Below, piece after piece: positions 1,992 through 50,292 of a stretch of DNA of 64,000 nucleotides. The first letter of the stretch is position 1, and each line of letters begins with the position of its first letter. The notes below the pieces were generated by a model, which was not told the DNA's origin, made no database searches, and saw nothing but the letters and a program-made list of their open reading frames with translations. The stretch spans positions 62,001-126,000 of the forward strand of contig RPFO01001042.1 in NCBI GenBank assembly GCA_009746045.1. The letters are read 5' to 3'. A program made the position numbers and the translations under genes. The stretch comes from Mesostigma viride (Eukaryota > Streptophyta > Mesostigmatophyceae > Mesostigmatales > Mesostigmataceae).

Positions 1992-3150
1992 TAAAATGAC
2001 AAAAAACTGCACATGTATGCTGTCACATGTCACCATTTGAGCTCAGAATGAGCCCAATTTTTGTGGGTGGTCTATTTTTACGCTCTACATGCTGCCTGCA
2101 AGAATCCAGCCTGAAATGAGTTCATTTGTCCACTATTCATATTTGTTTCATGTAAGAAAAGGGGGAAAATGACGAAAAACTGCACATGTATGCTGTCACA
2201 TGTCACCATTTGAGCTCAGAATGAGCCCAATTTTTGTGGGTGGTCTATTTTCATGCTCTACATGCTGCCTGCAAGAATCCAACTTGATATGAGTTCATTT
2301 GTCCACTATTCATATTTGTTTCATGTAAGAAAAGGGGGAAAATGACGAAAAACTGCACATGTATGCTGTCACATGTCACCATTTGAGCTCAGAATGAGCC
2401 CCATTTTTGTGGGTGGTCTATTTTCATGCTCTACATGCTGCCTGCAAGAATCCAGCCTGAAATGAGTTCATTTGTCTACTATTCATATTTGTTTCATGTA
2501 AGAAAACTGAGAAAATGACGAAAAACTGCACATGTATGCTGTCACATGTCACCATTTGAGCTCAGAATGAGCCCAATTTTTGTGGGTGGTCTATTTTCAT
2601 GGTCTACATGCTGCCTGCAAGAATCCAGCCTGAAATGAGTTCATTTGTCCACTATTCATATTTGTTTCATGTAAGAAAAGGGGGAAAATGACGAAAAACT
2701 GCACATGTATGCTGTCACATGTCACCATTTGAGCTCAGAATGAGCCCCATTTTTGTGGGTGGTCTATTTTCATGCTCTACATGCTGCCTGCAAGAATCCA
2801 GCCTGAAATGAGTTCATTTGTCCACTATTCATATTTGTTTCATGTAAGAAAAGGGGGAAAATGACGAAAAACTGCACATGTATGCTGTCACATGTCACCA
2901 TTTGAGCTCAGAATGAGCCCCATTTTTGTGGGTGGTCTATTTTCATGCTCTACATGCTGCCTGCAAGAATCCAGCCTGAAATGAGTTCATTTGTCTACTA
3001 TTCATATTTGTTTCATGTAAGAAAAGGGGGAAAATGACGAAAAACTGCACATGTATGCTGTCACATGTCACCATTTGAGCTCAGAATGAGCCCCATTTTT
3101 GTGGGTGGTCTATTTTCATGGTCTACATGCTGCCTGCAACAGTCCAGCTT
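1992..3150. repeat. 173-bp tandem satellite, about 6.6 copies
   Basis: The phrase CTGCACATGTATGCTGTCAC recurs at 2006, 2180, 2353, 2526, 2699, 2872 and 3045, giving a period of 173 (first step 174). Units differ by only a few substitutions (GCCCAATTTT/GCCCCATTTT, TTTCATGC/TTTCATGG). The array begins exactly where the DIRS-like terminus ends and fades at about 3150. Motifs GAAAAACTGCA, TGTCACC and GAGTTCATTTG recur in the diverged satellite at 29120-30080. Confidence 0.95.
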
Positions 3151-3941
3151 TAGGTACCCTCAGATCTGAAAGAGTTTTTTTTTACTCATTTGAAGACTTG
3201 TGAAATTGAGCAAACACTTATGAATCCCCTCCGCCTTGGCGAGACCTGCTGGACCAACAACCGCTGCAACAGGTCTTGCCCCGATTGTACCGCTGCCACG
3301 AGCGCCTCAAGGCGTACCACGGGCTCCGCCGGCACCAGAATACCCGTCTCTCTGGGACCTTCCGCGACCCGAAGTGGCGTCTCAGCAATGGTATGACAGT
3401 ATGTAGGCATGGTTCCTCCGCGGAACGGTGCGAGTGTCGAGCCGACGTGGTGGGTCTGCTGGGTCCCTCCGCGGGACGTAACGATGACGACCCAGCTCGG
3501 TCCGGCCGGGGACGGGGATCCAAGGAGACAAGGAAGGTAGGCTCCTGTTGGCCCACATCCGGCCGGGGACGGGACTCCAAGGAGACAAGGAAGGTAGGCT
3601 CCTGTTGGCCCACATACATCCGGCGGTGGACCCACGGGGGCCGCATCAGAGGGCTCACCCCTGGCCGGCTGTTCTGTCCTTGCCGCAGTGGTCTCCGTCG
3701 TCCCCTGCCGCGGTCGCCGTGCCGCCTCCCGCTCCAGCTCGAGCGTGGCCCCCCACGTTCGTTCCCATTGACGATCCTCCGGGCGACGAGGTACTATAGC
3801 GGCGGAGACGCTCGGCGAGCGGTTCGTCCCTCGGTCCCCGAGACTGTCTGAGCGGGAGCGCGAACGCGAGGGCGGCGAGGGCGAGCGGCGAAGTGCAGGT
3901 CGTTCCGGAGCACGCCGAGGAGCTGCCTGACTTCCCCCGCC
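3151..3941. other. Gypsy 3' region: no clear gene; 57-bp direct repeat
   Basis: This lies downstream of the Gypsy third ORF. Positions about 3506-3616 hold two copies of a 57-bp unit (CCGGCCGGGGACGGG, AAGGAGACAAGGAAGGTAGG, CTCCTGTTGGCCCACAT). Overlapping minus-strand ORFs of about 145 codons exist (3186-3658) but are open in several frames, as expected for GC-rich DNA, and I recognise no domain. No LTR matching the other end of the Gypsy element could be found by eye. Confidence 0.4.
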
Positions 3942-4061: not shown

Positions 4062-4408
4062 AGTTAAAGCCCCCGACCGGCTGAGCTATGGCGGTCGGTC
4101 ACGATGAGCTTGGGATAAGGTGAACACAGAGAACTGCTGTCGGAGCTGGCCAACCACTGGTTTATGTCTTAGCCAGCAAAGCCTATCCGGTTAGCCGTAA
4201 CCGTGGGACAAGCTAGCTGTCCGTACCGACCCGGATAAGGCCCCGGACTGGGGCCTAGGTGGCGCCGGCCCTAGGCGCCGCCCTTAGACCGGTCGACCGC
4301 ATCGGACCGCCGGATTATAGCCGGCGGCTTAGCGGACGCTAGCGGAAGGCGTGCGGACGGACATGGGGAACTTAGAGCCAGATCCTAGGGCTCTAGAGTT
4401 ACTCAACT
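4062..4408 (-). repeat. 3' LTR of Copia B
   Basis: 347 bp, reverse complement of the Copia A LTR family; starts AGTTAAAGCCC and ends TACTCAACT on the plus strand. It pairs with 16610-16958; the two differ by a few substitutions and a small indel (CCACTGG versus CCACCATGG). Confidence 0.93.
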
Positions 4409-4786
4409 CCGACATACTCTTTTGTTCTTTGATTAATTATCAAAATAATTACATCAAATGCAGACCATACAAAACCCTCTAAGGTAGGGAACTCAAGGGG
4501 GCCTCAAGGCCGTCAAAATCACCACGGTATCGACCCGCGCCCTTGTGATCACACATGAATAGTGATGTAATAAGTATCGAGCAAAAAACCAACTATGCCA
4601 CCAGACAAAAGGTGACCCATTTATTAGGACCAGTGACCCGCCGACGGGCCCAAGGCACCGTCCAACGTGGCTAGGGTATGGTCAGGACAAGCAAAAAAAC
4701 TACCACCATGATATTCGTGAATGCTAGCAACACAGGGTGAGTTATGGCTGTATTCATAAAGCGCCCGAGCCGTAACCCTGTGTGGC
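4409..4786 (-). other. 3' untranslated region of Copia B
   Basis: No gene. The sequence is the reverse complement of 11219-11589 in Copia A, but without the TRIM-1 insertion; the text CCGTAACCCTGTGTGGCTCA at 4769-4788 shows the empty target site. Confidence 0.85.
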
Positions 4787-5222
4787 TCACGGGTGTTGCA
4801 TCGTCATGCGCTTGCGCAACACTGCGTACTGCGGGGCAGCCTCCCGCGCCTCCTTGGTGAGTGCATCCGCGGGATTGAGTTCATCCGCGATGTGCTGGAG
4901 ACGCGTGACGCAGGAGGCCGCCTCAGCGAGTACGAGGTAATCAACGTCCTGTGACCGCGCATAGGGATTGTCAAGGAAGCCCAAACAACTTTGTGAGTCA
5001 GTGTGCACCGTGCTAGTCCAGTGAAGAGTGAACCCACACGAGCCAAATACCCAACCCAGCAAGTACCGCAGCCACATGCCATGTGAGATAGCTGAAACAA
5101 TGCCCCGGCATTCAGCCGTGTTGGGGCTAGTGGCAATGCGGCTGTGCAAGCGCGAGTACCAATCTAACAACATGCCAGGCTGGCCCTCATTGCTGATAAA
5201 GAACAGTGCCCCCATGCGAGCC
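4787..5222 (-). pseudogene. C-terminal RNase H fragment of Copia B
   Basis: The frame begins MGALFFISNEGQPGMLLDWY and ends RKRMTMQHP, identical to the RNase H end of Copia A (10234-10662). Visible RNase H landmarks are SPNTAECRG (catalytic Glu), VHTDSQSCLG (catalytic Asp) and ELNPADALTKEA, the typical Copia C-terminal signature. The upstream half is at 11935 onwards, separated by Copia A; GAGCC at 5218-5222 and 11935-11939 is the duplicated target. Confidence 0.9.
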
Positions 5223-5567
5223 AGTTGAGTAACTCTAGAGCCCTAGGATCTGGCTCTAAGTTCCCCATGTCCGTCCGCACGCCTTCCGCTAGCGTCCGCT
5301 AAGCCGCCGGCTATAATCCGGCGGTCCGATGCGGTCGACCGGTCTAAGGGCGGCGCCTAGGGCCGGCGCCACCTAGGCCCCAGTCCGGGGCCTTATCCGG
5401 GTCAGTACGGACGGCTAGCTTGTCCCACGGTTACGGCTAACCGGATAGGGTTTGCTGGCTAAGACATAAACCAGTGGTGGGCCAGCTCCGACAGTAGTTC
5501 TCTGTGTTCACCTTATCCCAAGCTCAACGTGACCGACCGCCATAGCTGAGCCGGTCGGGCTTTAACT
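5223..5567 (+). repeat. 5' LTR of Copia A
   Basis: 345 bp beginning AGTTGAGTAACTCTAGAG and ending GGTCGGGCTTTAACT. It is rich in short inverted repeats, such as GCCGGCTATAATCCGGC and CCCCAGTCCGGGG. Gag ATG lies only 20 bp after its end. Confidence 0.95.
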
Positions 5568-5586
5568 TGTATTCATAAAAATCCCG
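5568..5586 (+). promoter_or_regulatory. Position of the primer-binding site; non-canonical
   Basis: The sequence after the LTR is TGTATTCATAAAAATCCCG. It does not begin TGG and shows no match to the usual initiator-Met-tRNA site. Its first 12 bases (TGTATTCATAAA) are the perfect complement of TTTATGAATACA at 11239-11250 in the 3' UTR of the same element. Copia B has the same pair, at 16598-16609 and 4748-4759. Confidence 0.45.
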
Positions 5587-6435
5587 ATGGCTTCCGGTAC
5601 ACGGAGCCGCACGGGCGAACACACAGATACGCCAAGTGGCGAGGCCGCAGGGTCCGTCCTGCCACGCTTTAGTGCGGACGAGGCCACGAGGTTGATGCAA
5701 ACCCTCGTGGCGCAACCGGAACTGGCCAAGCAGTTCAAGCATCTCATGCTGGCTGCTGACGATGCACTAAATCGCGGCCCTCTCAAGCAAACGGAGGTGC
5801 CCGCAGATCTACCGGCCGACTATACGGCGGACGACGCAGCAGATTTTCTAGCTGCTCTCAAGCGTCTGCGCGATGGACGCGCAGACAAAGATTCGGAGCT
5901 GATTGGCAAGTTCCGTGCAGTATTCTGCAGTACAACAAAGCACCCAAACATTGCCAATCTAGTTCGCATTGCGGACGACAACAAACAAACCTGGGAAGTT
6001 TTTTACAACGGTCTAGATGCCCACTTGTCGCGGTCTAAGGAAGAGGCCGACGAGCAAGCCTTCAACGACTTCGAGGGCTATGCAGTTAATAAGGCAAATT
6101 TGCCCGGGGCTGCACGTGATTTCCAGGTCTTCGTGCACAAGCACAAGCTGCTAGATACACTCAAGCCCATTTTCCTGTGCAATCGATTTCTCAAGAAATG
6201 CGACCTGTCGTCGGATGTGCATCTGACCATAGCGACGGAACTCAAAAAGAAGAGTGCCGTCAGTTTCGACGAGGGCATGCTGTATTTGATCTCATGCATG
6301 CTTCAAGAGTGCGCAGTCCAAGCCGGCTGCCTCGGCTGCTCTGCCATCCCTGCATGCGCAAGGTGGATGCCGGCGCGTCTTCTTCTTCAGGCGCAGAGGC
6401 TCCAATTACGCGGTCGGAGCTTACGGCCATCCTGA
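5587..6435 (+). CDS. Gag of Copia A
   Basis: 282 codons from an ATG 20 bp after the LTR; the protein starts MASGTRSRTGEHTDT. An alpha-helical-looking Gag body (FRAVFCSTTKHPNIANLVRI, ATELKKKSAVSFDEGMLYLI) resembles retrotransposon Gag cores in composition; I do not recognise a named Pfam family. The zinc knuckle is not in this frame but in the overlapping ORF at 6177. Copy B has the same layout (16590-15730), with a 4-residue duplication (NRGPLNRGPL), so the frame step is a feature of the family. The last part of this frame (Arg/Leu-rich after about 6320) may not be used if a -1 frameshift occurs earlier in the overlap. Confidence 0.75.
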   Translation: MASGTRSRTGEHTDTPSGEAAGSVLPRFSADEATRLMQTLVAQPELAKQFKHLMLAADDALNRGPLKQTEVPADLPADYTADDAADFLAALKRLRDGRADKDSELIGKFRAVFCSTTKHPNIANLVRIADDNKQTWEVFYNGLDAHLSRSKEEADEQAFNDFEGYAVNKANLPGAARDFQVFVHKHKLLDTLKPIFLCNRFLKKCDLSSDVHLTIATELKKKSAVSFDEGMLYLISCMLQECAVQAGCLGCSAIPACARWMPARLLLQAQRLQLRGRSLRPS

Positions 6436-8378
6436 AAAAGGTCGTCGGCCACGGCAACAACGGGGGCCAGCGAGGGCGCAAGCGCGGGCATGGTGGCGAC
6501 GCCAAGCAGGGTGATAATCCCCCGGCCAAGCGGCAGCAGGGGGCGTCTACTGACCGCAAGCAACGCTGTGAGCGCTGCTTCGGACGTCGCCATGTCCGGG
6601 ATGACTGCCGAGTTCGCCCGGACCTGGAGCTCGAGGACAACCTTTGCCGCAAGTGCCACGACGTTCTGCGTGGTCACAGCGTGGAGGCGTGCAAGGCCAA
6701 GCGCATCGTCGTCCACGGCACACGCGAGGAGTGGGCAGAGCGACGGGCAGCACGAAAGTCAGGTGAGAGCACGCTCGATACCCCTTCTTTTGCTCAATGC
6801 GTCACGCTGAACCGGGCCGTCGTAGAGCCTGACGTCGTTCCTAAAAGCAACGTGACTGCATCCTCTGTCTCATTCCGTGATGTGCTCACGCAATCCGTTG
6901 ATGCTGCTCTGGCTCTGTCGCGCCAGGATCACGTGCTTCCTGAGCACGGGTCTACAATGCGTGACCTAAGCAATGTGGTGTCTTCTAGGTCGGGTGTGTA
7001 CAACGCCGAGCGACCAAGCACTACTGCAGCACCCCAGCTAGATACTGGGGCGGTTGGGCCTATGAGGAATGTTGTGACAGTGCAAGAGAATGCTGGGCGG
7101 GCAGATGTTCTCGGTACACACCACCCTAGTGTGGATCTTCACATTGGCAAGGTGCTCACACGGGCGGCCTTTCGTGCAGCCTCTGAAGCTGCCCAGTTAG
7201 CCAATGTCACTACCCCAGTAGTCACCCCACCTGTTGAGAATCCTGACAATGCCACTGCACCTCAGGCTGTCACCCTGAAACTGTTAGCATACCAGATGCA
7301 CCGTGCATACGGGCATGAGGCCCAAGCCGAGGTAGAGGGGGCACACATGTTGGGGGCACCTTTATACAACGAGCTGAAGAATGTGCGTGCTCAGTGTCCT
7401 GCCTGCATCAAGATCAGGAAGAAGTCGCGTAGGCGGCATGCCAAGACTCCACCCTTGGAGCGAGGGTACCTTGTGGGGGATGTCATGCACATGGAAGGGG
7501 GGGACACCTATTTCATAGTCAAGGATAGGTTCAGCAAGGCCACCTACATTGAGCCGCTGCCTCACATGTTTGAGGCTGACCTGCACAGGGCTATCAAGAT
7601 CAGCCTGGCTTTCTTTCATCCCGTAGTGGAGCTCATGCTAGACCAGCAGTTCCGCTGTGTGCAAGGTTTGCCGGGGATGGAGGCCGTGGTCATCGTGGGG
7701 CGTGAGGATCACGGCAATATGGGCATGATAGATCGCACTGTAAGCTATGTCAAGACTGTGGCAGCCAAGCGACAGGATAACCCACATGGCAAATCCTACG
7801 CGGTCAAGACGGCGTGGTGCAAGGAGCTCATGCATGTGTGCAACCATAGGCACGTGCTTGATGTCAAGGGCTTTGGGCTAGTCACGCCTCGGGGGCTGTC
7901 AGCGGGCACCTACTCACCCGAGGTAGTAGAGGCATACCAACAGCATCTACAGGATACCGCCGCCAAGCTGCGGCTCAAGGATGCCACGCTGCCTGATTTG
8001 TCTAGCGCTTTTGAGGTCGGGCAGTTGGTCATGTTCCACAAGGAGAGCTCGCCCAGCGGCAAACGGGGCACCATGCAGGGGCCTGGGGCCATCACAAAGT
8101 TAGACTGGCCGCTGCGGGTCATAGACATAGAGTGGAATGATCGGGTGTATAGGGTACCATGGGCATCGGTGGCAGGCTATAAGCAAGGGGATAGCATGGA
8201 GAGTGAGCTGGCAGCCAACAGGGCACTGGGGTGGGTAGTGAAGGATAATGCGCCTGTCGTAGCATCTGAGGTGGTACCCCACGGGTCGCTCCCAGGGGCA
8301 GACACAGCTACACCCCCCCCTCCCCTGGGCCCCAATATGACCCCGTGGATGGGTGGGATGAGGATGGGGTGGGTTTGA
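6177..8378 (+). CDS. Zinc knuckle and integrase ORF of Copia A
   Basis: Frame -1 relative to gag, overlapping it by 259 bp. Residues about 130-166 hold a CxxC...C zinc-binding stretch (RCERCFGRRHVRDDC and CRKCHDVLRGHSVEAC). Residues about 373-412 hold the integrase HHCC module (MHRAYGHEAQ ... AQCPACIKIRKKS). The core follows: DTYFIVKDRFSKATYIEPL, VELMLDQQFRCVQG, and GNMGMIDRTVSYVKTVAAKR. The position of the third catalytic residue appears to be Asp (MIDRTV) where Copia integrases have Glu (VERxxRT), and the first Asp is uncertain. The C-terminal part (VGQLVMFHKESSPSGKRGTM) looks like the SH3-like integrase tail. The usual Copia protease is not found upstream of this integrase. True translation start is likely by frameshift from gag. 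Confidence 0.8.
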   Translation: MQSISQEMRPVVGCASDHSDGTQKEECRQFRRGHAVFDLMHASRVRSPSRLPRLLCHPCMRKVDAGASSSSGAEAPITRSELTAILKKVVGHGNNGGQRGRKRGHGGDAKQGDNPPAKRQQGASTDRKQRCERCFGRRHVRDDCRVRPDLELEDNLCRKCHDVLRGHSVEACKAKRIVVHGTREEWAERRAARKSGESTLDTPSFAQCVTLNRAVVEPDVVPKSNVTASSVSFRDVLTQSVDAALALSRQDHVLPEHGSTMRDLSNVVSSRSGVYNAERPSTTAAPQLDTGAVGPMRNVVTVQENAGRADVLGTHHPSVDLHIGKVLTRAAFRAASEAAQLANVTTPVVTPPVENPDNATAPQAVTLKLLAYQMHRAYGHEAQAEVEGAHMLGAPLYNELKNVRAQCPACIKIRKKSRRRHAKTPPLERGYLVGDVMHMEGGDTYFIVKDRFSKATYIEPLPHMFEADLHRAIKISLAFFHPVVELMLDQQFRCVQGLPGMEAVVIVGREDHGNMGMIDRTVSYVKTVAAKRQDNPHGKSYAVKTAWCKELMHVCNHRHVLDVKGFGLVTPRGLSAGTYSPEVVEAYQQHLQDTAAKLRLKDATLPDLSSAFEVGQLVMFHKESSPSGKRGTMQGPGAITKLDWPLRVIDIEWNDRVYRVPWASVAGYKQGDSMESELAANRALGWVVKDNAPVVASEVVPHGSLPGADTATPPPPLGPNMTPWMGGMRMGWV

Positions 8379-10662
8379 CGGGACCTAGTGCACGTAGTGA
8401 CTCACCTCCTGTGCTAGCCACGGATAATGTGGGAGGCCCGCCTAGCGTGGCCTCGCCGGAGGGTCAGGGTCCTGCCCATGCGCCTCGCCCACCTAGGGAC
8501 CTGGCTTCAACGGTCACGGCCTTGTGGCGTGCTCAGGCGCTTAAAGCGAAAGCTGCATCAGGGGTGGCTCAGGTCAAAACTCTCTCACAGGGGGTCAGGC
8601 CGGTTAAGTCAGCCTTGTTTCCTACGTGTAGACCGTGGCAGCTGGTGGCTGTGGACACGCAAGCATCCGTGTCTATTATCTCTCGTCGGGCAGCCACCCT
8701 GTATCCAGTGCTAGAGTCGCCGTACAAATCGGTGACCGACTTTGCAGGCACTTCGGCATATCAAGTTACCGGGATGGTGGTGCTGCCGGTGTTGGGCATT
8801 GACACGCCGTTTCACGTCGTGGATGGCTACGAGGATGTGGCCTTGCTGGGCGAACCTTTCGTATCATACCCGGGGTTCTCAGTGTCCGCTGACTTGCTGT
8901 CAGTCGCGGGGGTGGGCAGCATCCCGCTTCGCGAGTACCACGCTCCATTGGGGGTGGTGGTCGGGCAGCCCGGCGTCGTGCGGCGCTTACCGATGGCGGC
9001 GTTTTCCACACCGCCGCTCGTCCAGTCCATCATTCAGCCTCAGGATTGGCACCCGCGCAGCTTCGGCCTCCACTCACACTCACTGGCGGCGGATAGCCCT
9101 GTGACGTGGGAGCAACTTGTCCTGGACTGTCAAGATCCTCTCAAGTTTGCTTTGTGGCGCGACGCGTTCATTCGAGCCAAGGAGCAGTGGCGAGAGCGCG
9201 AGGTCTACCGAGGATTGGAGAGTGTGCCAGCCGGGGCCACGCGGTTGCGGTTGAAGTTCGTGCTCACCTACAAGCCGGACGAGACCAACTCTTCGGTGGT
9301 GTTCCGGGTAAGGCCCGTGGTCACGGAGACGAAGGGGTCCTCCCCGCTGGATGCCAAGGATCTTTATACCCCTGGGCTCAACCATGTTTCGCATCGGCTA
9401 CTGACGGTCATCTACTTGGGCAAGCGGAACGCGGGCAAGGACTACGGGATGTGGTGCGGTGACTTTCAGCGGGCATTCCTCCACAGCGACGCTGGGGTCG
9501 CGCAGCAAACATGGCAAGGCACCCGCTACGTGGTGAAGGTCCCGGTGGTCTGGCAGGATGGCACCATTGGCAGCGAGTATATCGAGCTGTTGACAGGGGT
9601 GGAGGGGCTGCAGAGCTCTCCCATCATCTTCCGCATTTCCGCGGAGGAGGTCTTGCAGAGCTTAGGGGCCACGTACCATCGCGCGGATCCTAACTTCTTT
9701 GTGGTCCCCACCGGCGTCCCTGGCGAGCCAGCCCTCTTCGTGTGGCATGGCGATGACTTCAAGCTGGTGGCACCTCGCACCTTTGCTACCAGTTTCTTGC
9801 TGCAGTGGCGGCTAAGTTTCCCCTGGGCAGGGCGGTGGATCATGAGGAGGGTAAACCCGTGGTGTTTTGCGGCGTGCAGTCTACGTTGCAGCGGGATTCG
9901 CGTTCTGGCGAATGGGTCATGCACATGCAGGATAGCCGCAACTATGTGGTTGACCTGCTGGCCGACCTCCCGTCCCCGCTGTTGGCAACCCATGGGCCCT
10001 CGGTTAAGGGCAAGCTCGGGTGGTTGGCGGACACGGTGGCACCTGATTTGGCGGTGCTCGCTCGCCTGCCCGATGATGTGCTGGAAGGACTAGGGTCCAT
10101 TCATGTTCGGCGGCAGCTGGCCATGACGCCCGGCATTGTGCTTCGTGGGCTCGATTGCTCACAGCCGGTGCACCTCGAGATAGTGACGGATGCTAATCTA
10201 GAGACGCGCACAGTCAGCCAAGTGCGGGCCCGCATGGGGGCACTGTTCTTTATCAGCAATGAGGGACAGCCTGGCATGTTGTTAGATTGGTACTCGCGCT
10301 TGCACAGCCGCATTGCCACTAGCCCCAACACGGCTGAATGCCGGGGCATTGTTTCAGCTATCTCACATGGCATGTGGCTGCGGTACTTGCTGGGTTGGGT
10401 ATTTGGCTCGTGTGGGTTCACTCTTCACTGGACTAGCACGGTGCACACTGACTCACAAAGTTGTTTGGGCTTCCTTGACAATCCCTATGCGCGGTCACAG
10501 GACGTTGATTACCTCGTACTCGCTGAGGCGGCCTCCTGCGTCACGCGTCTCCAGCACATCGCGGATGAACTCAATCCCGCGGATGCACTCACCAAGGAGG
10601 CGCGGGAGGCTGCCCCGCAGTACGCAGTGTTGCGCAAGCGCATGACGATGCAACACCCGTGA
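8345..10662 (+). pseudogene. Protease, RT and RNase H ORF of Copia A, one frameshift
   Basis: Frame -1 relative to the integrase ORF with a 34-bp overlap. Near residue 103 is VAVDTQASVSIISRRAATLY, a retropepsin-like DTxAS motif, followed by ALLGEPFVSYPGF, resembling the second retropepsin strand. RT motifs follow: RLRLKFVLTYKPD, GMWCGDFQRAFLHSD (motif A), GLQSSPIIFRI and FVWHGDDFKLVAP (catalytic DD, residue about 466). A one-base deletion near 9789 ends this frame; RNase H continues in the frame of 9805-10662 with EIVTDANLETRTVSQ, NTAECRG, VHTDSQSCLG and NPADALTKEA. Copy B lacks this particular lesion, showing that RT and RNase H are normally one ORF. Confidence 0.88.
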
Positions 10663-10673
10663 GCCACACAGGG

Positions 10674-11218
10674 AGTTGCGTTAAATAGTGCCGGAACCTT
10701 TTGCCGCCTGAGGCAAATCGGGCCGGAACACTATTTTGCCCGGAATAACCACTTCCGAGCACCCAAGTTAATTCGGCCGAATTAACTTGGGTGCTCGGAA
10801 GTGGTTATTCCGGGCAAAATAGTGTTCCGGCCCGATTTGCCTCAGGCGGCAAAAGGTTCCGGCACTATTTAACGTAACTAAAACCTGGCCTCGTGGAGGG
10901 GGGACGAAGAGCCCGAGACATCCGCCTAGGCCGCTGAGCACGCACCACTAAATGCGCCGGAGCTGCCTCAGTGAGGATTCGAACCCCTGACCTCCAAGGT
11001 GCAACAGGTTTTAGTTACGTTAAATAGTGCCGGAACCTTTTGCCGCCTGAGGCAAATCGGGCCGGAACACTATTTTGCCCGGAATAACCACTTCCGAGCA
11101 CCCAAGTTAATTCGGCCGAATTAACTTGGGTGCTCGGAAGTGGTTATTCCGGGCAAAATAGTGTTCCGGCCCGATTTGCCTCAGGCGGCAAAAGGTTCCG
11201 GCACTATTTAACGTAACT
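10674..11218. mobile_element. TRIM-1: miniature element with palindromic terminal repeats
   Basis: Two 206-bp terminal repeats (10674-10879 and 11013-11218) flank a 133-bp internal region. Each terminal repeat is a near-perfect palindrome centred on AATTCGGCCGAATT. Outer ends are AGTT...AACT. A 5-bp TSD CAGGG is present at 10669-10673 and 11219-11223; the empty site is intact in Copia B at 4769-4788. The internal region begins AAAACCTGG, ends CAGGTTTT and, on the minus strand, contains GGGGTTCGAATCC, a tRNA B-box-like motif. No ORF. Confidence 0.9.
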
Positions 11219-11589
11219 CAGGGTTACGGCTCGGGCGCTTTATGAATACAGCCATAACTCACCCTGTGTTGCTAGCATTCACGAATATCATGGTGGTAGT
11301 TTTTTTGCTTGTCATGACCATACCCTAGCCACGTTGGACGGTGCCTTGGGCCCGTCGGCGGGTCACTGGTCCTAATAAATGGGTCACCTTTTGTCTGGTG
11401 GCATAGTTGTTTTTTTCTCGATACTTATTACATCACTATTCATGTGTGATCACAAGGGCGCGGATCGATACCGTGGTGATTTTGACGGCCTTGAGGCCCC
11501 CTTGAGTTCCCTACCTTAGAGGGTTTTGTATGGTCTGCATTTGATGTAATTATTTTGATAATTAATCAAAGAACAAAAGAGTATGTCGG
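11219..11589 (+). other. 3' untranslated region of Copia A
   Basis: No gene. It includes TTTATGAATACA at 11239-11250, complementary to the first 12 bases after the 5' LTR. The stretch before the LTR (AAAGAACAAAAGAG) is purine-rich but is separated from the LTR by TATGTCGG. Confidence 0.7.
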
Positions 11590-11934
11590 AGTTGAGTAAC
11601 TCTAGAGCCCTAGGATCTGGCTCTAAGTTCCCCATGTCCGTCCGCACGCCTTCCGCTAGCGTCCGCTAAGCCGCCGGCTATAATCCGGCGGTCCGATGCG
11701 GTCGACCGGTCTAAGGGCGGCGCCTAGGGCCGGCGCCACCTAGGCCCCAGTCCGGGGCCTTATCCGGGTCAGTACGGACGGCTAGCTTGTCCCACGGTTA
11801 CGGCTAACCGGATAGGGTTTGCTGGCTAAGACATAAACCGGTGGTGGGCCAGCTCCGACAGTAGTTCTCTGTGTTCACCTTATCTCAAGCTCAACGTGAC
11901 CGACCGCCATAGCTGAGCCGGTCGGGCTTTAACT
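11590..11934 (+). repeat. 3' LTR of Copia A
   Basis: 345 bp, near identical to 5223-5567; ends CTTTAACT followed by the TSD GAGCC. Confidence 0.95.
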
Positions 11935-13821
11935 GAGCCCGCACTTGGCTGACTGTGCGCGTCTCTAGATTAGCATCCGTCACTATCTCGAGGTGCACCG
12001 GCTGTGAGCAATCGAGCCCACGAAGCACAATGCCGGGCGTCATGGCCAGCTGCCGCCGAACATGAATGGACCCTAGTCCTTCCAGCACATCATCGGGCAG
12101 GCGAGCGAGCACTGCCAAATCAGGTGCCACCGTGTCCGCCAACCACCCGAGCTTGCCCTTAACCGAGGGCCCATGGGTCGCCAACAGCGGGGACGGGAGG
12201 TCGGCCAGCAGGTCAACCACATAGTTGCGGCTATCCTGCATGTGCATGACCCATTCGCCAGAACGCGAATCCCGCTGCAACGTAGACTGCACGCCGCAAA
12301 ACACCACGGGTTTACCCTCCTCATGATCCACCGCCCTGCCCAGGGGAAACTTAGCCGCCACTGCAGCAAGAAACTGGGTAGCAAAGGTGCGAGGTGCCAC
12401 CAGCTTGAAGTCATCGCCATGCCACACGAAGAGGGCTGGCTCGCCAGGGACGCCGGTGGGGACCACAAAGAAGTTAGGATCAGCGCGATGGTACGTGGCC
12501 CCTAAGCTCTGCAAGACCTCCTCCGCGGAAATGCGGAAGATGATGGGAGAGCTCTGCAGCCCCTCCACCCCTGTCAACAGCTCGATATACTCGCTGCCAA
12601 TGGTGCCATCCTGCCAGACCACCGGGACCTTCACCACGTAGCGGGTGCCTTGCCATGTTTGCTGCGCGACCCCAGCGTCGCTGTGGAGGAATGCCCGCTG
12701 AAAGTCACCGCACCACATCCCGTAGTCCTTGCCCGCGTTCCGCTTGCCCAAGTAGATGACCGTCAGTAGCCGATGCGAAACATGGTTGAGCCCAGGGGTA
12801 TAAAGATCCTTGGCATCCAGCGGGGAGGACCCCTTCGTCTCCGTGACCACGGGCCTACCCGGAACACCACCGAAGAGTTGGTCTCGTCCGGCTTGTAGGT
12901 GAGCACGAACTTCAACCGCAACCGCGTGGCCCCGGCTGGCACACTCTCCAATCCTCGGTAGACCTCGCGCTCTCGCCACTGCTCCTTGGCTCGAATGAAC
13001 GCGTCGCGCCACAAAGCAAACTTGAGAGGATCTTGACAGTCCAGGACAAGTTGCTCCCACGTCACAGGGCTATCCGCCGCCAGTGAGTGTGAGTGGAGGC
13101 CGAAGCTGCGCGGGTGCCAATCCTGAGGCTGAATGATGGACTGGACGAGCGGCGGTGTGGAAAACGCCGCCATCGGTAAGCGCCGCACGACGCCGGGCTG
13201 CCCGACCACCACCCCCAATGGAGCGTGGTACTCGCGAAGCGGGATGCTGCCCACCCCCGCGACTGACAGCAAGTCAGCGGACACTGAGAACCCCGGGTAT
13301 GATACGAAAGGTTCGCCCAGCAAGGCCACATCCTCGTAGCCATCCACGACGTGAAACGGCGTGTCAATGCCCAACACCGGCAGCACCACCATCCCGGTAA
13401 CTTGATATGCCGAAGTGCCTGCAAAGTCGGTCACCGATTTGTACGGCGACTCTAGCACTGGATACAGGGTGGCTGCCCGACGAGAGATAATAGACACGGA
13501 TGCTTGCGTGTCCACAGCCACCAGCTGCCACGGTCTACACGTAGGAAACAAGGCTGACTTAACCGGCCTGACCCCCTGTGAGAGAGTTTTGACCTGAGCC
13601 ACCCCTGATGCAGCTTTCGCTTTAAGCGCCTGAGCACGCCACAAGGCCGTGACCGTTGAAGCCAGGTCCCTAGGTGGGCGAGGCGCATGGGCAGGACCCT
13701 GACCCTCCGGCGAGGCCACGCTAGGCGGGCCTCCCACATTATCCGTGGCTAGCACAGGAGGTGAGTCACTACGTGCACTAGGTCCCGTCAAACCCACCCC
13801 ATCCTCATCCCACCCATCCAC
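11935..13821 (-). pseudogene. Protease, RT and N-terminal RNase H of Copia B
   Basis: Reads MDGWDEDGVGLTGP from 13821, with protease motif VAVDTQASVSIISRR and RT. One base is missing near 12857 (FRVGPWSRRRR where A has FRVRPVVTETKG), which moves RT into the frame of 13060-11891. RT motif FVWHGDDFKLVAP and PLGRAVDHEEGKPVVFCG are intact in that frame. RNase H is cut after TVSQVRA at 11935 by insertion of Copia A; the rest is at 4787-5222. Confidence 0.88.
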
Positions 13822-15988
13822 GGGGTCATATTGGGGCCCAGGGGAGGGGGGGGTGTAGCTGTGTCTGCCCCTGGGAGCGACCCGTGGGGTACCACCTCAG
13901 ATGCTACGACAGGCGCATTATCCTTCACTACCCACCCCAGTGCCCTGTTGGCTGCCAGCTCACTCTCCATGCTATCCCCTTGCTTATAGCCTGCCACCGA
14001 TGCCCATGGTACCCTATACACCCGATCATTCCACTCTATGTCTATGACCCGCAGCGGCCAGTCTAACTTTGTGATGGCCCCAGGCCCCTGCATGGTGCCC
14101 CGTTTGCCGCTGGGCGAGCTCTCCTTGTGGAACATGACCAACTGCCCGACCTCAAAAGCGCTAGACAAATCAGGCAGCGTGGCATCCTTGAGCCGCAGCT
14201 TGGCGGCGGTATCCTGTAGATGCTGTTGGTATGCCTCTACTACCTCGGGTGAGTAGGTGCCCGCTGACAGCCCCCGAGGCGTGACTAGCCCAAAGCCCTT
14301 GACATCAAGCACGTGCCTATGGTTGCACACATGCATGAGCTCCTTGCACCACGCCGTCTTGACCGCGTAGGATTTGCCATGTGGGTTATCCTGTCGCTTG
14401 GCTGCCACAGTCTTGACATAGCTTACAGTGCGATCTATCATGCCCATATTGCCGTGATCCTCACGCCCCACGATGACCACGGCCTCCATCCCCGGCAAAC
14501 CTTGCACACAGCGGAACTGCTGGTCTAGCATGAGCTCCACTACGGGATGAAAGAAAGCCAGGCTGATCTTGATAGCCCTGTGCAGGTCAGCCTCAACATG
14601 TGGGGCAGCGGCTCAATGTAGGTGACCTTGCTGAACCTATCCTTGACTATGAAATAGGTGTCCCCCCCTTCCATGTGCATGACATCCCCCACAAGGTACC
14701 CTCGCTCCAAGGGTGGAGTCTTGGCATGCCGCCTACGCGACTTCTTCCTGATCTTGATGCAGGCAGGACACTGAGCACGCACATTCTTCAGCTCGTTGTA
14801 TAAAGGTGCCCCCAACATGTGTGCCCCCTCTACCTCGGCTTGGGCCTCATGCCCGTATGCACGGTGCATCTGGTATGCTAACAGTTTCAGGGTGACAGCC
14901 TGAGGTGCAGTGGCATTGTCAGGATTCTCAACAGGTGGGGTGACTACTGGGGTAGTGACATTGGCTAACTGGGCAGCTTCAGAGGCTGCACGAAAGGCCG
15001 CCCGTGTGAGCACCTTGCCAATGTGAAGATCCACACTAGGGTGGTGTGTACCGAGAACATCTGCCCGCCCAGCATTCTCTTGCACTGTCACAACATTCCT
15101 CATAGGCCCAACCGCCCCAGTATCTAGCTGGGGTGCTGCAGTAGTGCTTGGTCGCTCGGCGTTGTACACACCCGACCTAGAAGACACCACATTGCTTAGG
15201 TCACGCATTGTAGACCCGTGCTCAGGAAGCACGTGATCCTGGCGCGACAGAGCCAGAGCAGCATCAACGGATTGCGTGAGCACATCACGGAAGGAGACAG
15301 AGGATGCAGTCACGTTGCTTTTAGGAACGACGTCAGGCTCTACGACGGCCCGGTTCAGCGTGACGCATTGAGCAAAAGAAGGGGTATCGAGCGTGCTCTC
15401 ACCTGACTTTCGTGCTGCCCGTCGCTCTGCCCACTCCTCGCGTGTGCCGTGGACGACGATGCGCTTGGCCTTGCACGCCTCCACGCTGTGACCACGTAGA
15501 ACGTCGTGGCACTTGTGGCAAAGGTTGTCCTCGAGCTCCAGGTCCGGGCGAACTCGGCAGTCATCCCGGACATGGCGACGTCCGAAGCAGCGCTCACAGC
15601 GTTGCTTGCGGTCAGTAGACGCCCCCTGCTGCCGCTTGGCCGGGGGATTATCACCCTGCTTGGCGTCGCCACCATGCCCGCGCTTGCGCCCTCGCTGGCC
15701 CCCGTTGTTGCCGTGGCCGACGACCTTTTTCAGGATGGCCGTAAGCTCCGACCGCGTAATTGGAGCCTCTGCGCCTGAAGAAGAAGACGCGCCGGTATCC
15801 ACCTTGCGCATGCAGGGATGGCAGAGCAGCCGAGGCAGCCGGCTTGGACTGCGCACTCTTGAAGCATGCATGAGATCAAATACAGCATGCCCTCGTCGAA
15901 ACTGACGGCACTCTTCTTTTTGAGTTCCGTCGCTATGGTCAGATGCACATCCGACGACAGGTCGCATTTCTTGAGAAATCGATTGCAC
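13788..15988 (-). pseudogene. Zinc knuckle and integrase ORF of Copia B, frameshifted
   Basis: Equivalent to 6177-8378 in A. A base is missing near 14600 (PHMLRLTCTG where A has PHMFEADLHRA), splitting the frame into 15988-14540 and 14540-13788. Zinc-binding motifs and the HHCC module are intact (one change, CHKCHD for CRKCHD). The second half has MLDQQF, MIDRTVSYVKT and the integrase tail. The same Asp-for-Glu position is seen here, so it is a family trait rather than a random mutation. Confidence 0.85.
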
Positions 15989-16590
15989 AGGAAAATGGGC
16001 TTGAGAGTATCTAGCAGCTTGTGCTTGTGCACGAAGACCTGGAAATCACGTGCAGCCCCGGGCAAATTTGCCTTATTAACTGCATAGCCCTCGAAATCGT
16101 TGAAGGCTTGCTCGTCGGCCTCTTCCTTAGACCGCGACAAGTGGGCATCTAGACCGTTGTAAAAAACTTCCCAGGTTTGTTTGTTGTCGTCCGCAATGCG
16201 AACTAGATTGGCAATGTTTGGGTGCTTGGTTGTACTGCAGAATACTGCACGGAACTTGCCAATCAGCTCCGAATCTTTGTCCGCGCGTCCATCGCGCAGA
16301 CGCTTGAGAGCAGCCAGAAAATCTGCTGCGTCGTCCGCCGTATAGTCGGCAGGTAGATCAGCGGGCACCTCCGTTTGCTTGAGAGGGCCGCGATTCAGTG
16401 GGCCGCGATTCAGTTCGTCAGCAGCAAGCATCAAATGCTTGAACTGCTTGGCCAGTTCAGGTTGCGCCACGAGGGTTTGCATCAACCTCGTGGCCTCGTC
16501 CGCACTAAAGCGTGGCAGGACGGACCCTGCGGCCTCGCCACTTGGCGTATCTGTGTGTTCGCCCGTGCGGCTCCGTGTACCGGAAGCCAT
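15730..16590 (-). CDS. Gag of Copia B
   Basis: 286 codons, near identical to Gag of A; starts MASGTRSRTGEHTDT about 20 bp after the 5' LTR. Carries a short in-frame duplication (LNRGPLNRGPLKQ) relative to A. Overlaps the integrase ORF in the same way as A. Confidence 0.75.
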   Translation of the reverse strand: MASGTRSRTGEHTDTPSGEAAGSVLPRFSADEATRLMQTLVAQPELAKQFKHLMLAADELNRGPLNRGPLKQTEVPADLPADYTADDAADFLAALKRLRDGRADKDSELIGKFRAVFCSTTKHPNIANLVRIADDNKQTWEVFYNGLDAHLSRSKEEADEQAFNDFEGYAVNKANLPGAARDFQVFVHKHKLLDTLKPIFLCNRFLKKCDLSSDVHLTIATELKKKSAVSFDEGMLYLISCMLQECAVQAGCLGCSAIPACARWIPARLLLQAQRLQLRGRSLRPS

Positions 16591-16609
16591 CGGGAATTTT
16601 ATGAATACA

Positions 16610-16958
16610 AGTTAAAGCCCCCGACCGGCTGAGCTATGGCGGTCGGTCACGATGAGCTTGGGATAAGGTGAACACAGAGAACTGCTGTCGGAGCTGGCCA
16701 ACCACCATGGTTTATGTCTTAGCCAGCAAAGCCTATCCGGTTAGCCGTAACCGTGGGACAAGCTAGCTGTCCGTACCGACCCGGATAAGGCCCCGGACTG
16801 GGGCCTAGGTGGCGCCGGCCCTAGGCGCCGCCCTTAGACCGGTCGACCGCATCGGACCGCCGGATTATAGCCGGCGGCTTAGCGGACGCTAGCGGAAGGC
16901 GTGCGGACGGACATGGGGAACTTATAGCCAGATCCTAGGGCTCTAGAGTTACTCAACT
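16610..16958 (-). repeat. 5' LTR of Copia B
   Basis: 349 bp; plus-strand text starts AGTTAAAGCCCCCG and ends TACTCAACT, followed by TSD AAGGT (16959-16963). Confidence 0.93.
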
Positions 16959-16963
16959 AAGGT

Positions 16964-17950
16964 GCCCCGAGACGGTGGATCCCGCGGGGGAGAACGTGGG
17001 GGAGGGCGTGAGTGACGGTCATCTGAATCGGAATCGTAGCCATCACTCCCATCGTCCTGATCTTCGTCGTCCATCGTCGTGATGCGATCCAGGGCCTGTC
17101 GGAGCGAATACTGCCCTGCACGTAGGCACTTTTCGCCCCGCAACGCCCCCTCCGGCGGAAGGTACCGGGGAAAGTGATTCCTTAGCAGGTTCCGCACCGC
17201 CGGTGGAACTAGAAGGAGCAAAAGCCGTGGAAATACCAGGCCTGCATCCAGCGTGTTCACGCACGCGTTACAAAGGCACTCCCTCTCGTGGGTATCCCAA
17301 GCCGTGCCAACCACCACTCCGTCGCGCTCTGCGGTGCGGGTCTCTACCTTGAGCCCCACATTCCTCCGCACGAACCATCGAAAATTCTCCAACTGCCCGT
17401 GGGCGACCCACGCCAGAATGGAATCGGCGCGGAGATCAGAAGGCATCCGGTTATGGCGCCGACGCCGTCGTTCAAACAAGGCTTCACCCTCCCGGCCATA
17501 GTCGCGCAAGAACACTCGGGGATTAAATGTCTCCTCGTTCAGCTCCTTCACCAGCTGCATGGCGCGTGTGTCCGGTGCTCCTGGCTTGGATGACATCTCT
17601 TGCCGGCGTTCGCGACCGGATGAAGGCCCCGTCTGCCACCACCTCCCGACCCTCCGGCCCCTAAGGCATCTTTTCGGACTGCAGGCTCTCCGCGAGCTGT
17701 CTGCGTCCTCGATCGTATCCCTTTCTGGTTGAGGGACCTCAGGTTGATCCGGCATGTCCATGTCAACCAGATCTTCTTCGCTTGACTCCCCCTCTGCTTC
17801 CCGTATTTCTGTATCTGCGGCCTCCGCGGCACTGAAGGAAGTCGGTTCTCTGGGAAGCGCCTCCGCGGCGTCCCCCTGCATAGACCACACACAAGATACC
17901 AGGGCATTAGTCGGCGTGTACCTATTACCCAGCTCACACACCACTTTCAC
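16964..17950 (-). pseudogene. Third ORF of the Gypsy element, split by Copia B
   Basis: Starts MKVVCELGNRYTPTN 29 bp after the pol stop. The protein is hydrophilic, with acidic stretches (EGESSEEDLVDMDMPD, DDEDQDDGSDGYDSDSDD), a basic patch (FERRRRRHNRMPSD) and a Cys motif (ECLCNAC). A short Leu/Val-rich stretch (GLVFPRLLLLLVPPAVRNLL) is the only hydrophobic segment and is not a clear membrane anchor. Removing Copia B and one AAGGT joins the frame to 4056, from where it reads on to a TAG at 3942-3944, adding about 37 residues. Position after integrase is where some Gypsy elements have env or accessory genes; no env-like signal peptide is visible and I do not recognise the family. Confidence 0.6.
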
Positions 17951-17978
17951 CCTACCCCGCTGTACCGTATGTAGCCTG

Positions 17979-22128: not shown

Positions 22129-22139
22129 GGGTAAGGCTA

Positions 22140-24008: not shown

Positions 24009-24102
<94 letters not shown>

Positions 24103-24523: not shown

Positions 24524-24620
<97 letters not shown>

Positions 24621-24626: not shown

Positions 24627-24683
24627 GTACTAGTTATCTATAGGTATAGTACCTAGTATTAAAAACTCTAATGGTAATCCCCT

Positions 24684-25025: not shown

Positions 25026-25078
25026 GTTACATAGTAGTCTAGCAGAAGCTTGCAAGCAGGAGAAAAAGGAGTACCCAG

Positions 25079-25661
25079 AGTTAGGTGAAATAGTGCCGGA
25101 ACCTTTTTGCCGTTGGGGCAAATCGGGCCGGAACACTATTTTGCCCGGATTCACCACTTCCGAGCACCCAAGTTAATTCGGCCCGGATTCACCACTTCCG
25201 AGCACCTAAATTAATTCGGCCGAATTAACTTGGGTGCTCGGAAGTGGTGAATCCGGGCAAAATAGTGTTCTGGCCCGATTTGCCCCAACGGCAAAAAGGT
25301 TCCGGCACTATTTCACCTAACTAAGACCTGTGCACCTTGGAGGTCAGGGGTTCGAAACCTGCCAGAGGCAGTTCCGGCGCAATATCATTTGCGTGCACTA
25401 GCCCAGGCGGTTGTCTCCAGGTCTATTCGACTCCCCCTCCACGGGGCCAGGTTTTGGTTAGGTGAAATAGTGCCGGAACCTTTTTGCCGTTGGGGCAAAT
25501 CGGGCCGGAACACTATTTTGCCCGGATTCACCACTTCCGAGCACCCAAGTTAATTCGGCCGAATTAACTTGGGTGCTCGGAAGTGGTGAATCCGGGCAAA
25601 ATAGTGTTCCGGCCCGATTTGCCCCAACGGCAAAAAGGTTCCGGCACTATTTCACCTAACT
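25079..25661. mobile_element. TRIM-2: miniature element with palindromic terminal repeats
   Basis: Terminal repeats 25079-25322 (244 bp) and 25456-25661 (206 bp) flank a 133-bp internal region. The longer repeat differs by a 38-bp internal duplication (GGATTCACCACTTCCGAGCA...). Both are palindromic around AATTCGGCCGAATT. The outer ends are AGTTAGG and CCTAACT; TSD CCCAG is at 25074-25078 and 25662-25666. The internal region has ACCTTGGAGGTCAGGGGTTC followed by GAAACC, the same B-box-like segment as in TRIM-1 but in the opposite orientation. Confidence 0.9.
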
Positions 25662-25676
25662 CCCAGGGCTACCTCG

Positions 25677-31224: not shown

Positions 31225-31360
31225 GATTCTATTAACCGTGGAACTCCAAGGTAACCAGACTCTTTATTAAAACAATAAGTAGAGCACATCGGGAAGTGGC
31301 CCTCAACTGGCCATCCTTACCCATGGGAACACTTTATGCCCCAAAAGGCTAGCCTTACCC

Positions 31361-49046: not shown

Positions 49047-50292
49047 AGTTATATACAACGATTCCTTGCGGAATCGGTACTAAGCGCTTAGTACCGATTC
49101 CGCAAGGAATCGTTGTATATAACTAAAACTTTTGCTTGCGCCGGCAAGGCTAAGGCCGATACTAGTCGGGTCATCGAATTGGCTATTCGATTATCGAAGT
49201 TGCCTATTCGACCATCGAACTTTCCTATTCGATTATCGAATTTTCCTTATTCGATTGTCGAAATTTCCTATTCGACGGGGGGTCAGAGGCCAGCGGCCTA
49301 TCATACTCGGTGCCCAGCGAGCCACCGAACTAGGCCTAGTCGATTATAGCGAGACATCGCGTGGAAATTAGCCGATTTCGGGGACTTAGCCGATTTTCGG
49401 AGCGACGTCGAACAACACAGATGATTAGCCGGTTGAGCACATCATATCAGTCGAATAGCTAGCGCTGGTACTCCGCCTAGTAAGCGGAGAGCACTTGCCT
49501 ATTTCGATTAACATATTAGGCCGAACGATTAGCGTCCGCAACGTTATTCGCATTACTAGGCGAAAAATCCACCCCCGGAACGATCCTAGCGGGATTCGAA
49601 CCCGGGATGCCGGCGTGTCGCAACAGTCTTAGTTATATACAACGATTCCTTGCGGAATCGGTACTAAGCGCTTAGTACCGATTCCGCAAGGAATCGTTGT
49701 ATATAACTAAGACTGTTGCGACACGCCGGCATCCCGGGTTCGAATCCCGCTAGGATCGTTCCGGGGGTGGATTTTTCGCCTAGTAATGCGAATAACGTTG
49801 CGGACGCTAATCGTTCGGCCTAATATGTTAATCGAAATAGGCAAGTGCTCTCCGCTTACTAGGCGGAGTACCAGCGCTAGCTATTCGACTGATATGATGT
49901 GCTCAACCGGCTAATCATCTGTGTTGTTCGACGTCGCTCCGAAAATCGGCTAAGTCCCCGAAATCGGCTAATTTCCACGCGATGTCTCGCTATAATCGAC
50001 TAGGCCTAGTTCGGTGGCTCGCTGGGCACCGAGTATGATAGGCCGCTGGCCTCTGACCCCCCGTCGAATAGGAAATTTCGACAATCAAATAAGGAAAATT
50101 CGATAATCGAATAGGAAAGTTCGATGGTCGAATAGGCAACTTCGATAATCGAATAGCCAATTCGATGACCCGACTAGTATCGGCCTTAGCCTTGCCGGCG
50201 CAAGCAAAAGTTTTAGTTATATACAACGATTCCTTGCGGAATCGGTACTAAGCGCTTAGTACCGATTCCGCAAGGAATCGTTGTATATAACT
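49047..50292. mobile_element. TRIM-3: mirror-image element with three palindromic terminal repeats
   Basis: Three 78-bp repeats, each a perfect palindrome (AGTTATATACAACGATTCCT ... AACT; centre AAGCGCTT), at 49047-49124, 49631-49708 and 50215-50292. The two 506-bp regions between (49125-49630, 49709-50214) are reverse complements with only about one difference seen (CTTATTCG versus CTTATTTG). TSD CGTGG at 49042-49046 and 50293-50297. Each internal region starts, next to the middle repeat, AAGACTGTTGCGACACGCCG and contains CCCGGGTTCGAATCCCG, a tRNA B-box-like motif, plus repeats of TATTCGATTATCGAA. It sits in intron 3 of the pogo-like transposase gene. Confidence 0.93.

Follow-up and report, generated by a model that had tools for sequence, protein, structure and literature searches.

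The window, by which we mean the whole 64,000-nucleotide stretch of Mesostigma viride DNA analysed here, contains three miniature elements, TRIM-1, TRIM-2 and TRIM-3, whose terminal repeats are themselves palindromes. The question raised by this locus is what kind of mobile element has such ends, and how it is copied. Mirror-image, head-to-head copies with palindromic ends suggest an unusual way of self-copying. The palindromic repeat is designated P and the interior I. TRIM-1 and TRIM-2 are monomers, and their parts are as follows.

10669..10673, no strand: target duplication CAGGG to the left of TRIM-1, from the sequence
10674..10879, no strand: left P of TRIM-1, 206 bp, 204 of 206 bases self-complementary
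10880..11012, minus strand: interior of TRIM-1, from the sequence and the RNA fold
11013..11218, no strand: right P of TRIM-1, 206 bp, 206 of 206 bases self-complementary
11219..11223, no strand: target duplication CAGGG to the right of TRIM-1, from the sequence
4776..4780, minus strand: empty site of TRIM-1, a single CAGGG (CCCTG on the plus strand), in the outer Copia-like copy
25079..25322, no strand: left P of TRIM-2, 244 bp, the 206-bp unit with an internal insertion, 216 of 244 bases self-complementary
25323..25455, plus strand: interior of TRIM-2, carrying the tRNA-like GGTTCGAAACC
25456..25661, no strand: right P of TRIM-2, 206 bp, 204 of 206 bases self-complementary

The left and right P of TRIM-1 differ at one base. 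The palindromes of TRIM-1 and TRIM-2 are about 92% identical, and each is self-complementary nonetheless. TRIM-2 is flanked by the target duplication CCCAG (25074-25078 and 25662-25666), and its interior, which shows 79% identity to that of TRIM-1, lies in the opposite orientation within the window. TRIM-1 is placed in the inner of two Copia-like elements (5223-11934), and its empty site is found in the outer one (4062-16958, minus strand). An empty site in this copy ('Copia B') had been predicted, and the sequence around the single CCCTG at 4776-4780 matches both flanks of TRIM-1. The inner extension of the repeats (AARAC...GTYTT) is inverted in all three elements. Because the repeat is palindromic and the small inner extension is inverted, direct and inverted terminal repeats are indistinguishable here. 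At any one site, a perfect arm would occur by chance with a probability of about 10^-23 for 39 bp and about 10^-62 for 103 bp. These probabilities, together with exact centres and marks that recur 156 to 1,284 times genome-wide, exclude a chance origin.

TRIM-3 had been described as 78-bp repeats around one interior. It actually contains three P and two interiors.

49047..49124, no strand: outer left P of TRIM-3, 78 bp, perfect palindrome
49125..49630, minus strand: interior copy 1 of TRIM-3, tRNA-like end towards the central P
49631..49708, no strand: central P of TRIM-3, 78 bp, perfect palindrome
49709..50214, plus strand: interior copy 2 of TRIM-3, inverted with respect to copy 1
50215..50292, no strand: outer right P of TRIM-3, 78 bp, perfect palindrome

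The two interiors show a single difference in 506 bp, and the target duplication CGTGG is located at 49042-49046 and 50293-50297. The whole of TRIM-3 is a near-perfect palindrome of 1,246 bp with two differences from its own reverse complement. Thus, TRIM-3 is a head-to-head inverted dimer, P-I(-)-P-I(+)-P. The family plan with palindromic terminal repeats given in the original prediction is borne out, the non-coding nature of the interiors is supported, and the 5-bp target duplications CAGGG, CCCAG and CGTGG are all as it had them. The AGTT...AACT ends are likewise present. One detail is corrected: the right repeat of TRIM-2 begins with G.

All three interiors begin with AARACCTG or AAGACTG next to P and finish with GTTTT. 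On the minus strand, the TRIM-1 interior has AAAACCTGTTGCACC at its start and CAGGTTTT at its end. About 30 bases into each of the three interiors, the B-box-like sequence GGTTCGAA(A/T)CC is present. The tRNA-like GGTTCGAATCC is located at 10975-10985 in the minus-strand reading of TRIM-1 and at 49737-49747 in interior copy 2 of TRIM-3. The tRNA-like box suggests transcription by RNA polymerase III. No tRNA was detected in the window by ARAGORN or in the tested TRIM-1 and TRIM-3 stretches by Rfam, and a search of the whole window at Rfam gathering scores gave no hammerhead ribozyme or other family. Weak Rfam matches on the TRIM-3 palindrome, below gathering scores, were rejected as hairpin look-alikes. 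The interior ends are mutually complementary, and the predicted RNA is closed, that of TRIM-1 forming one long rod. Each interior folds better than any of its shuffles, with z values of -4.1 for TRIM-1 (200 shuffles), -4.7 for TRIM-2 (200 shuffles) and -5.0 for TRIM-3 (100 shuffles). A fold restricted to bases 1-97 of the TRIM-3 stretch is unremarkable (z -0.13). By eye, neither a primer-binding site nor a polypurine tract was recognised next to P in TRIM-1, TRIM-2 or TRIM-3; in TRIM-1/2 a pyrimidine-rich tract is located where the purine tract is expected.

Copies were searched for in the organism's own assembly (440 Mb, 2,243 contigs). The exact 36-bp centre of the TRIM-1/2 palindrome gave 1,284 matches, the exact 25-bp TRIM-1/2 interior mark 991 (483 + 508) and the exact TRIM-3 interior mark 156 (78 + 78), and the backward control patterns gave zero. 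In viral contigs, no exact match to an 18-base stretch of P was found. The pattern GTCTTAGTT...AACTAAGAC with 80-110 bases between occurs at four places in the genome; judged from the letters matched, two of them are TRIM-3-like, and the other two resemble a further palindrome type (G000:C1624:575845-575964 and C2145:595399-595502). The further type has a palindrome-like centre between AARAC junctions, and it shares an AACCTTTTTGCC stretch with TRIM-2.

Seventy-six distinct elements, none cut by a locus end, were obtained from the fetched loci. Elements truncated at a locus end, bodies that duplicate another exactly, and L001 and L026, which are copies of window elements, were left out. A few likely segmental duplicates are included: L012 and L059, which share their duplication with L011 and L056, were otherwise dropped but remain within the following 76, 58 and 55. 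Both AGTT and AACT ends are present in 58 of the 76 elements, and an exact 5-bp target duplication is found in 55 of these 58, whether the element is a monomer, a dimer or a longer array. It is lacking in L036, L039 (CCGTC against CTGTC, one mismatch) and L083. As the duplications lie outside the whole array, these results indicate that dimers and multimers were inserted as one piece. The fetched elements comprise 40 of the form P-P+P, 15 monomers, one solo P (L080), one convergent element (L010), one -+-+ array (L092), and several larger or incomplete arrays. Most of the fetched loci were picked by similarity, so that frequencies are better read from the contig-order lists. The solo P is flanked by a 5-bp duplication at a C-rich site, where chance identity is higher. 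The original prediction had named genome-wide copies and solo palindromes as places to check it; the 5-bp duplications are consistent in 55 of the 58 intact-ended copies, and one such solo palindrome was found. This solo P, and the presence in the window of an LTR-type element with matching ends and duplication length, lend the retroelement reading further support. Several copies contain a half palindrome, with P broken at its centre or close to it (L002, L014, L023, L031 and L072), and L072 has a 7-bp direct repeat, CCGTCAG, at the end of its half P. Missed sequencing adapters can produce inverted repeats. In that case the flank would be inverted too, and the matching duplications on both sides argue against such an artefact as the source of the inverted dimers.

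The orientation of the units was read from the interior marks, plus being the orientation in which GGTTCGAA reads from left to right. Among the first 100 of the 991 TRIM-1/2 marks, 53 clusters with 47 junctions were obtained, of which 30 are divergent, two convergent and 15 head-to-tail. The spacing expected across one P (249-250 bp) is observed at 27 of the 30 divergent junctions. The first 100 of the 156 TRIM-3 marks form 77 clusters with 22 divergent, no convergent and one head-to-tail junction; 16 of the 22 are at the expected 127-128 bp, and one is at an odd 1207 bp. For both families together, the listed inverted junctions are 52 divergent against two convergent (p = 1.6e-13 against equal odds). 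The tRNA-like ends thus face the central palindrome in 52 of 54 cases. The original prediction held that the interior can read either way, whereas in multi-unit copies the orientation is strongly ordered. The arrays --+, -++, --+++ and ---++ each contain a single orientation switch. The exceptions to divergence are the two convergent TRIM-1/2 junctions, one of which is L092, and the convergent element L010. One cluster (G000:C206:17433-19795) has nine interior marks, -++--++++, with one convergent junction, and probably represents several adjacent or rearranged elements. TRIM-1/2 marks more than 470 bp apart were treated as separate clusters; as a result, two or more pairs separated by an unmarked unit were divided (C1 and C180). 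Single marks number 24 and simple dimers 18 among the 53 TRIM-1/2 clusters, and 54 and 22 among the 77 TRIM-3 clusters; exact matching overlooks diverged neighbours, and the single-mark counts do not give the monomer frequency. The head-to-head inverted dimer, inserted as one unit, is the commonest multi-unit form, a statement that claims no majority over all copies. Divergence at P places the joint at the presumptive 3' end of the cDNA.

The halves of the dimers were then compared. Of the 16 contig-order loci (L076-L091), 11 were used; L079 and L081 extend beyond their locus, L080 is the solo P, and L084 and L086 have an incomplete P. In these 11 dimers of the first type, the halves of about 441 bp show 5, 1, 7, 1, 7, 17, 8, 3, 2, 0 and 1 differences, compared with a between-element median of 12. 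The partner is the joint nearest relative for 18 of the 22 halves, a closeness that none of 20,000 random pairings reached. In a set of 28 dimers of both types, mostly picked by similarity, in which the two families are mixed and many copies are near-identical, the median difference is 6 within a dimer and 36.5 between dimers; none of 5,000 random pairings was as close, and 21 of the 56 halves are strictly nearest to their partner. These comparisons suggest that the two halves of a dimer usually share one source or have very similar ones. L044 is a hybrid dimer, with a family-1 half and a family-2 half inside one duplication, CTGCC; its outer palindromes show 26 differences and its interiors 30 or 19, depending on the alignment. 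The hybrid fits the joining of two molecules. Clearly unlike interiors are also observed in L085 (10 differences), L086 (13), L074 (14) and the first dimer of L011 (11). Whether dimers with unlike outer palindromes also have unlike interiors was examined by rank correlation, which gave no support (rho 0.28, p = 0.12). Compared with their own reverse complements, six of 15 whole dimers show 0-2 differences, and the remaining nine between 4 and 96.

As a rule, genomes do not maintain long perfect palindromes stably. Here, many are carried as the ends of mobile elements, and a substitution in one arm of P is often matched by a compensating one in the other. Among 46 unique 206-bp copies of the TRIM-1 type, there are 74 compensated symmetric pairs against 0.95 expected under independence, with 63 unpaired substitutions; in 23 copies of the TRIM-2 type, there are 30 against 0.37, with 36 unpaired. 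The counts of compensated pairs are inflated by shared descent and are uncorrected for kinship, and they exclude copies that depart from the majority by more than 25 differences. Gene conversion after insertion could be an alternative source of both the compensated changes and the similar halves. We also considered whether central palindromes are richer in arm mismatches than outer ones, as predicted if their arms stem from two molecules. A first look seemed positive, but the full test was not: the values, central against outer, are 1.34 and 0.67 in 32 dimers (p = 0.059), and 0.71 and 0.96 in 14 later-fetched dimers, 11 from the contig-order lists and three of the TRIM-3 type from a similarity list. 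Dimers with an incomplete P were left out of the comparisons of P.

The two Copia-like elements of the window belong to the same family, and the outer one is interrupted by the inner one, the host of TRIM-1.

5223..11934, plus strand: inner Copia-like element, 345-bp LTRs at 5223-5567 and 11590-11934, AGTT...AACT ends, target duplication GAGCC
4062..16958, minus strand: outer Copia-like element, LTRs at 4062-4408 and 16610-16958, AGTT...AACT ends, target duplication AAGGT

The 345-bp LTR gave 624 candidates in the genome, of which the best 40, the ones scored, are 99-100% identical. Among these 40, all eight same-contig LTR pairs less than 9 kb apart are direct, and six of them are 5,807-5,810 bp apart. 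This LTR is non-palindromic (90 of 345 bases self-complementary), and beyond the shared ends only chance-length matches were found between P and the Copia-like elements. According to the common AGTT...AACT ends and 5-bp duplications, the Copia-like elements probably supply the enzymes, the inner one being the proposed source of reverse transcriptase and integrase. Their pol gave no Pfam match even at E = 10 and no PDB match, the predicted structure is unusable (mean pLDDT 34.6), and comparison with the Gypsy pol profile gave a marginal RNase H-like match (probability 6%). A pol fragment shows 97% identity over 58% to a protein labelled Mesvir1; single and profile searches gave only two protein relatives, both Mesvir1, among 8,000 scored candidates each. 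By eye, we take NPADALTK and a DTxA protease-like site in P0002, P0123 and P0124 to be Copia-type motifs. An HHCC stretch, which we presume to be integrase-like, seemingly lies upstream of the protease-/RT-like part, and this order seems unusual. The Copia-type identity of pol is putative, being based on motifs recognised by eye.

Other repeats are present in the window. A Gypsy pol with a chromodomain lies on the minus strand at 16949-24629, and a fragment of the window Gypsy pol shows 92% identity over 51% of its length to a EukProt Mesvir1 protein; the upstream part of this element contains a long CTG-rich repeat at about 23940-24190. A separate LTR element at 52291-56526 has TG...CA ends, identical 745-bp LTRs and the duplication CCTTG, and the one ORF of it that was scanned gave only a Pol_BBD match. 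Tandem arrays are located at 1990-3154 and 29377-30044, with periods of 173 bp and 184 bp. Direct repeats of about 350 bp (30877-31228 and 38009-38360), 97% identical and 7.1 kb apart, surround mostly minus-strand ORFs and are a possible further LTR pair.

We give about an even chance to the following explanation: the elements are non-autonomous LTR-type parasites, and, by virtue of the palindromic repeat, their cDNA ends serve as second-strand primers on themselves or on each other. A P-I-P RNA would be copied into first-strand cDNA with P as its 3' end, by enzymes borrowed from a Copia-like retrotransposon with AGTT...AACT ends. The self-complementary 3' P would prime the second strand after folding back, or after pairing with the 3' P of another cDNA inside the same particle, so that a polypurine primer is unnecessary. 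Fold-back of a cDNA on itself would give dimers with like halves, and pairing with another cDNA would give the hybrid. The product would be a linear head-to-head dimer, P-I(-)-P-I(+)-P, to be inserted by integrase with a 5-bp duplication. If synthesis of the first strand jumped from one P to another, head-to-tail units would be appended, and the (-)m(+)n arrays would result. As one arm of P would be copied from the other, P would stay perfect. Monomers and the solo P may arise by recombination between P units or from incomplete cycles. A palindrome at the 3' end of the cDNA, that is, the 5' end of the RNA, would explain the dimers, the divergence, the single-switch arrays and the missing polypurine tract. 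The model leaves the start of the first strand unexplained. If transcription starts at the tRNA-like promoter, the RNA would contain only the last bases of the upstream P, and this is also left unexplained. Further points against the model are the surplus of single marks over simple dimers in the exact-match lists, the convergent junctions, the 21 of 56 strictly nearest halves, the unrecognised primer-binding site, the lack of a family match for the Copia-like pol, and the central palindromes that did not show the predicted extra mismatches.

Other explanations were weighed against self-priming by P. The elements may be cut-and-paste or foldback DNA elements, with P as part of a terminal inverted repeat and the 5-bp duplication generated by a DDE transposase; fold-back of replicating or excised DNA would then give the inverted dimers. 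The inverted inner extension (AARAC...GTYTT), the six of 15 whole dimers that are foldback palindromes with 0-2 differences, and the failure to see a primer-binding site or polypurine tract by eye suit this explanation. The ends and the duplication length, however, match an LTR element of the same window, head-to-tail arrays with one common P are LTR-like, and the sole empty site (4776-4780) is an untouched target with no footprint. Fold-back alone also fails to account for the position of nearly all joints at the tRNA-like end, and we regard a DNA element as unlikely. Slightly less probable is that the dimer itself is the inherited unit, with the outer P as ordinary LTRs and I(-)-P-I(+) as the internal region, copied by classical LTR replication, and with monomers as deletions between P units. 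That dimers are the commonest multi-unit form speaks for it. In addition, the outer P are identical in 10 of 32 complete dimers, with a differing central P in four of these 10, and only 21 of 56 halves in the 28 mostly similarity-picked dimers are strictly nearest to their partner. Classical replication, however, gives identical outer LTRs at birth, yet in nine of the 32 dimers both outer P are perfect and show 2 to 8 differences, and L044 shows 26. Moreover, the halves of an inherited dimer should drift apart, yet 18 of 22 halves in the contig-order dimers are joint nearest.

Two further explanations concern processes and elements already known. Unequal recombination or gene conversion may have inverted ordinary TRIMs, or put them in tandem, once they were inserted, with quasi-palindrome correction keeping P perfect. 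Such correction would account for the compensated arms, and recombination has been given as the explanation for tandem TRIMs (PMC6934838, PMC4558846). The matching duplications are nevertheless located outside whole arrays (55 of 58), and recombination at an orientation-free palindrome should favour neither orientation, against the 52 to two observed. The orientation count largely refutes rearrangement after insertion, which we regard as very improbable. Finally, non-autonomous Penelope-like elements, for which head-to-head inverted structures, palindromes and proposed self-priming are known, have a layout and a palindromic joint of the present kind in a bdelloid rotifer (PMC3846280). In the rotifer cases reported there, the duplications are 8 or 10 bp or none (PMC3846280), whereas the present elements have constant 5-bp duplications (55 of 58) and AGTT...AACT ends on both sides, and the window gave no hammerhead ribozyme or other Rfam family at gathering scores. 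A Penelope-like origin is disfavoured by the constant duplications, and we consider it the least probable of all.

Returning to self-priming by P, we suggest, only tentatively and with more doubt than for the explanation itself, that it is a new mode of retroelement replication, in which the terminal repeat is the second-strand primer and the normal product is a self-complementary head-to-head dimer. If this is true, LTR-type integration is coupled to a hairpin step like that of parvoviruses, and the elements can do without a polypurine tract and without a second strand transfer. Each dimer RNA would also be a natural source of long double-stranded RNA. Parvovirus rolling-hairpin replication resembles the present case in its terminal palindromes and in inverted dimers joined at the palindrome; parvoviruses differ in being DNA viruses with their own replication protein and without target duplications. 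Retrozymes carry hammerhead ribozymes in their LTRs, whereas no Rfam match at gathering scores was obtained here in the window. A tRNA-derived SINE has A and B boxes and a tRNA-related head; here the B-box-like GGTTCGAA(A/T)CC is present, and no tRNA was detected by ARAGORN in the window or by Rfam in the tested TRIM-1 and TRIM-3 stretches. Cassandra shares the RNA polymerase III promoter, putative in the present case, in a miniature LTR element and the LTR-sharing arrays, but it has the 5S rRNA sequence in its LTRs (PMC7215508), whereas here the tRNA-like piece is in the interior. In the case of self-primed Tf1 and the fungal Copia element GalEa, priming without tRNA has been proposed, and a palindromic or hairpin sequence is located at the boundary between LTR and interior (PMC5445492). 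That priming is of the first strand from a short site (PMC5445492), whereas here the whole repeat is involved, with an inferred role in the second strand.

No elements with palindromic LTRs were found in searches of the open-access literature, nor, if the priming is inferred correctly, was this route to double-stranded retroelement DNA; 'palindrom' is absent from the main texts of both Mesostigma genome papers and of PMC4717578. The elements resemble the TRIMs of the latter paper in their small size, non-coding interior and 5-bp duplications, the last as in the four cases given in the legend to its Fig. 2. TRIM repeats are described there as direct LTRs (PMC4717578), whereas the present repeat is a perfect palindrome. 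TRIM repeats are 100-250 bp long (PMC6934838), and those found here are 206, 244 and a shorter 78 bp. Tandem TA-TRIM arrays with shared repeats are known, and the form with three repeats and two interiors is the most frequent in maize (PMC4717578). Unlike those TRIMs, the commonest multi-unit form here is the head-to-head dimer, and no primer-binding site was recognised; a TRIM without a clear PBS has been published (PMC6934838). Penelope-like elements share the head-to-head inverted structures, the joint palindromes and the self-priming hypothesis, but their palindromes of 18 and 38 bp are at the pLTR ends (PMC3846280), whereas here the whole repeat is palindromic; their pLTRs vary in orientation and their duplications in length, against a constant 5 bp here (55 of 58). 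The closest published cases are these head-to-head Penelope structures (PMC3846280) and one inverted tandem TRIM in maize, given in a figure legend (PMC4717578). If self-priming by P is true, it is a possible explanation for that inverted maize TRIM as well.
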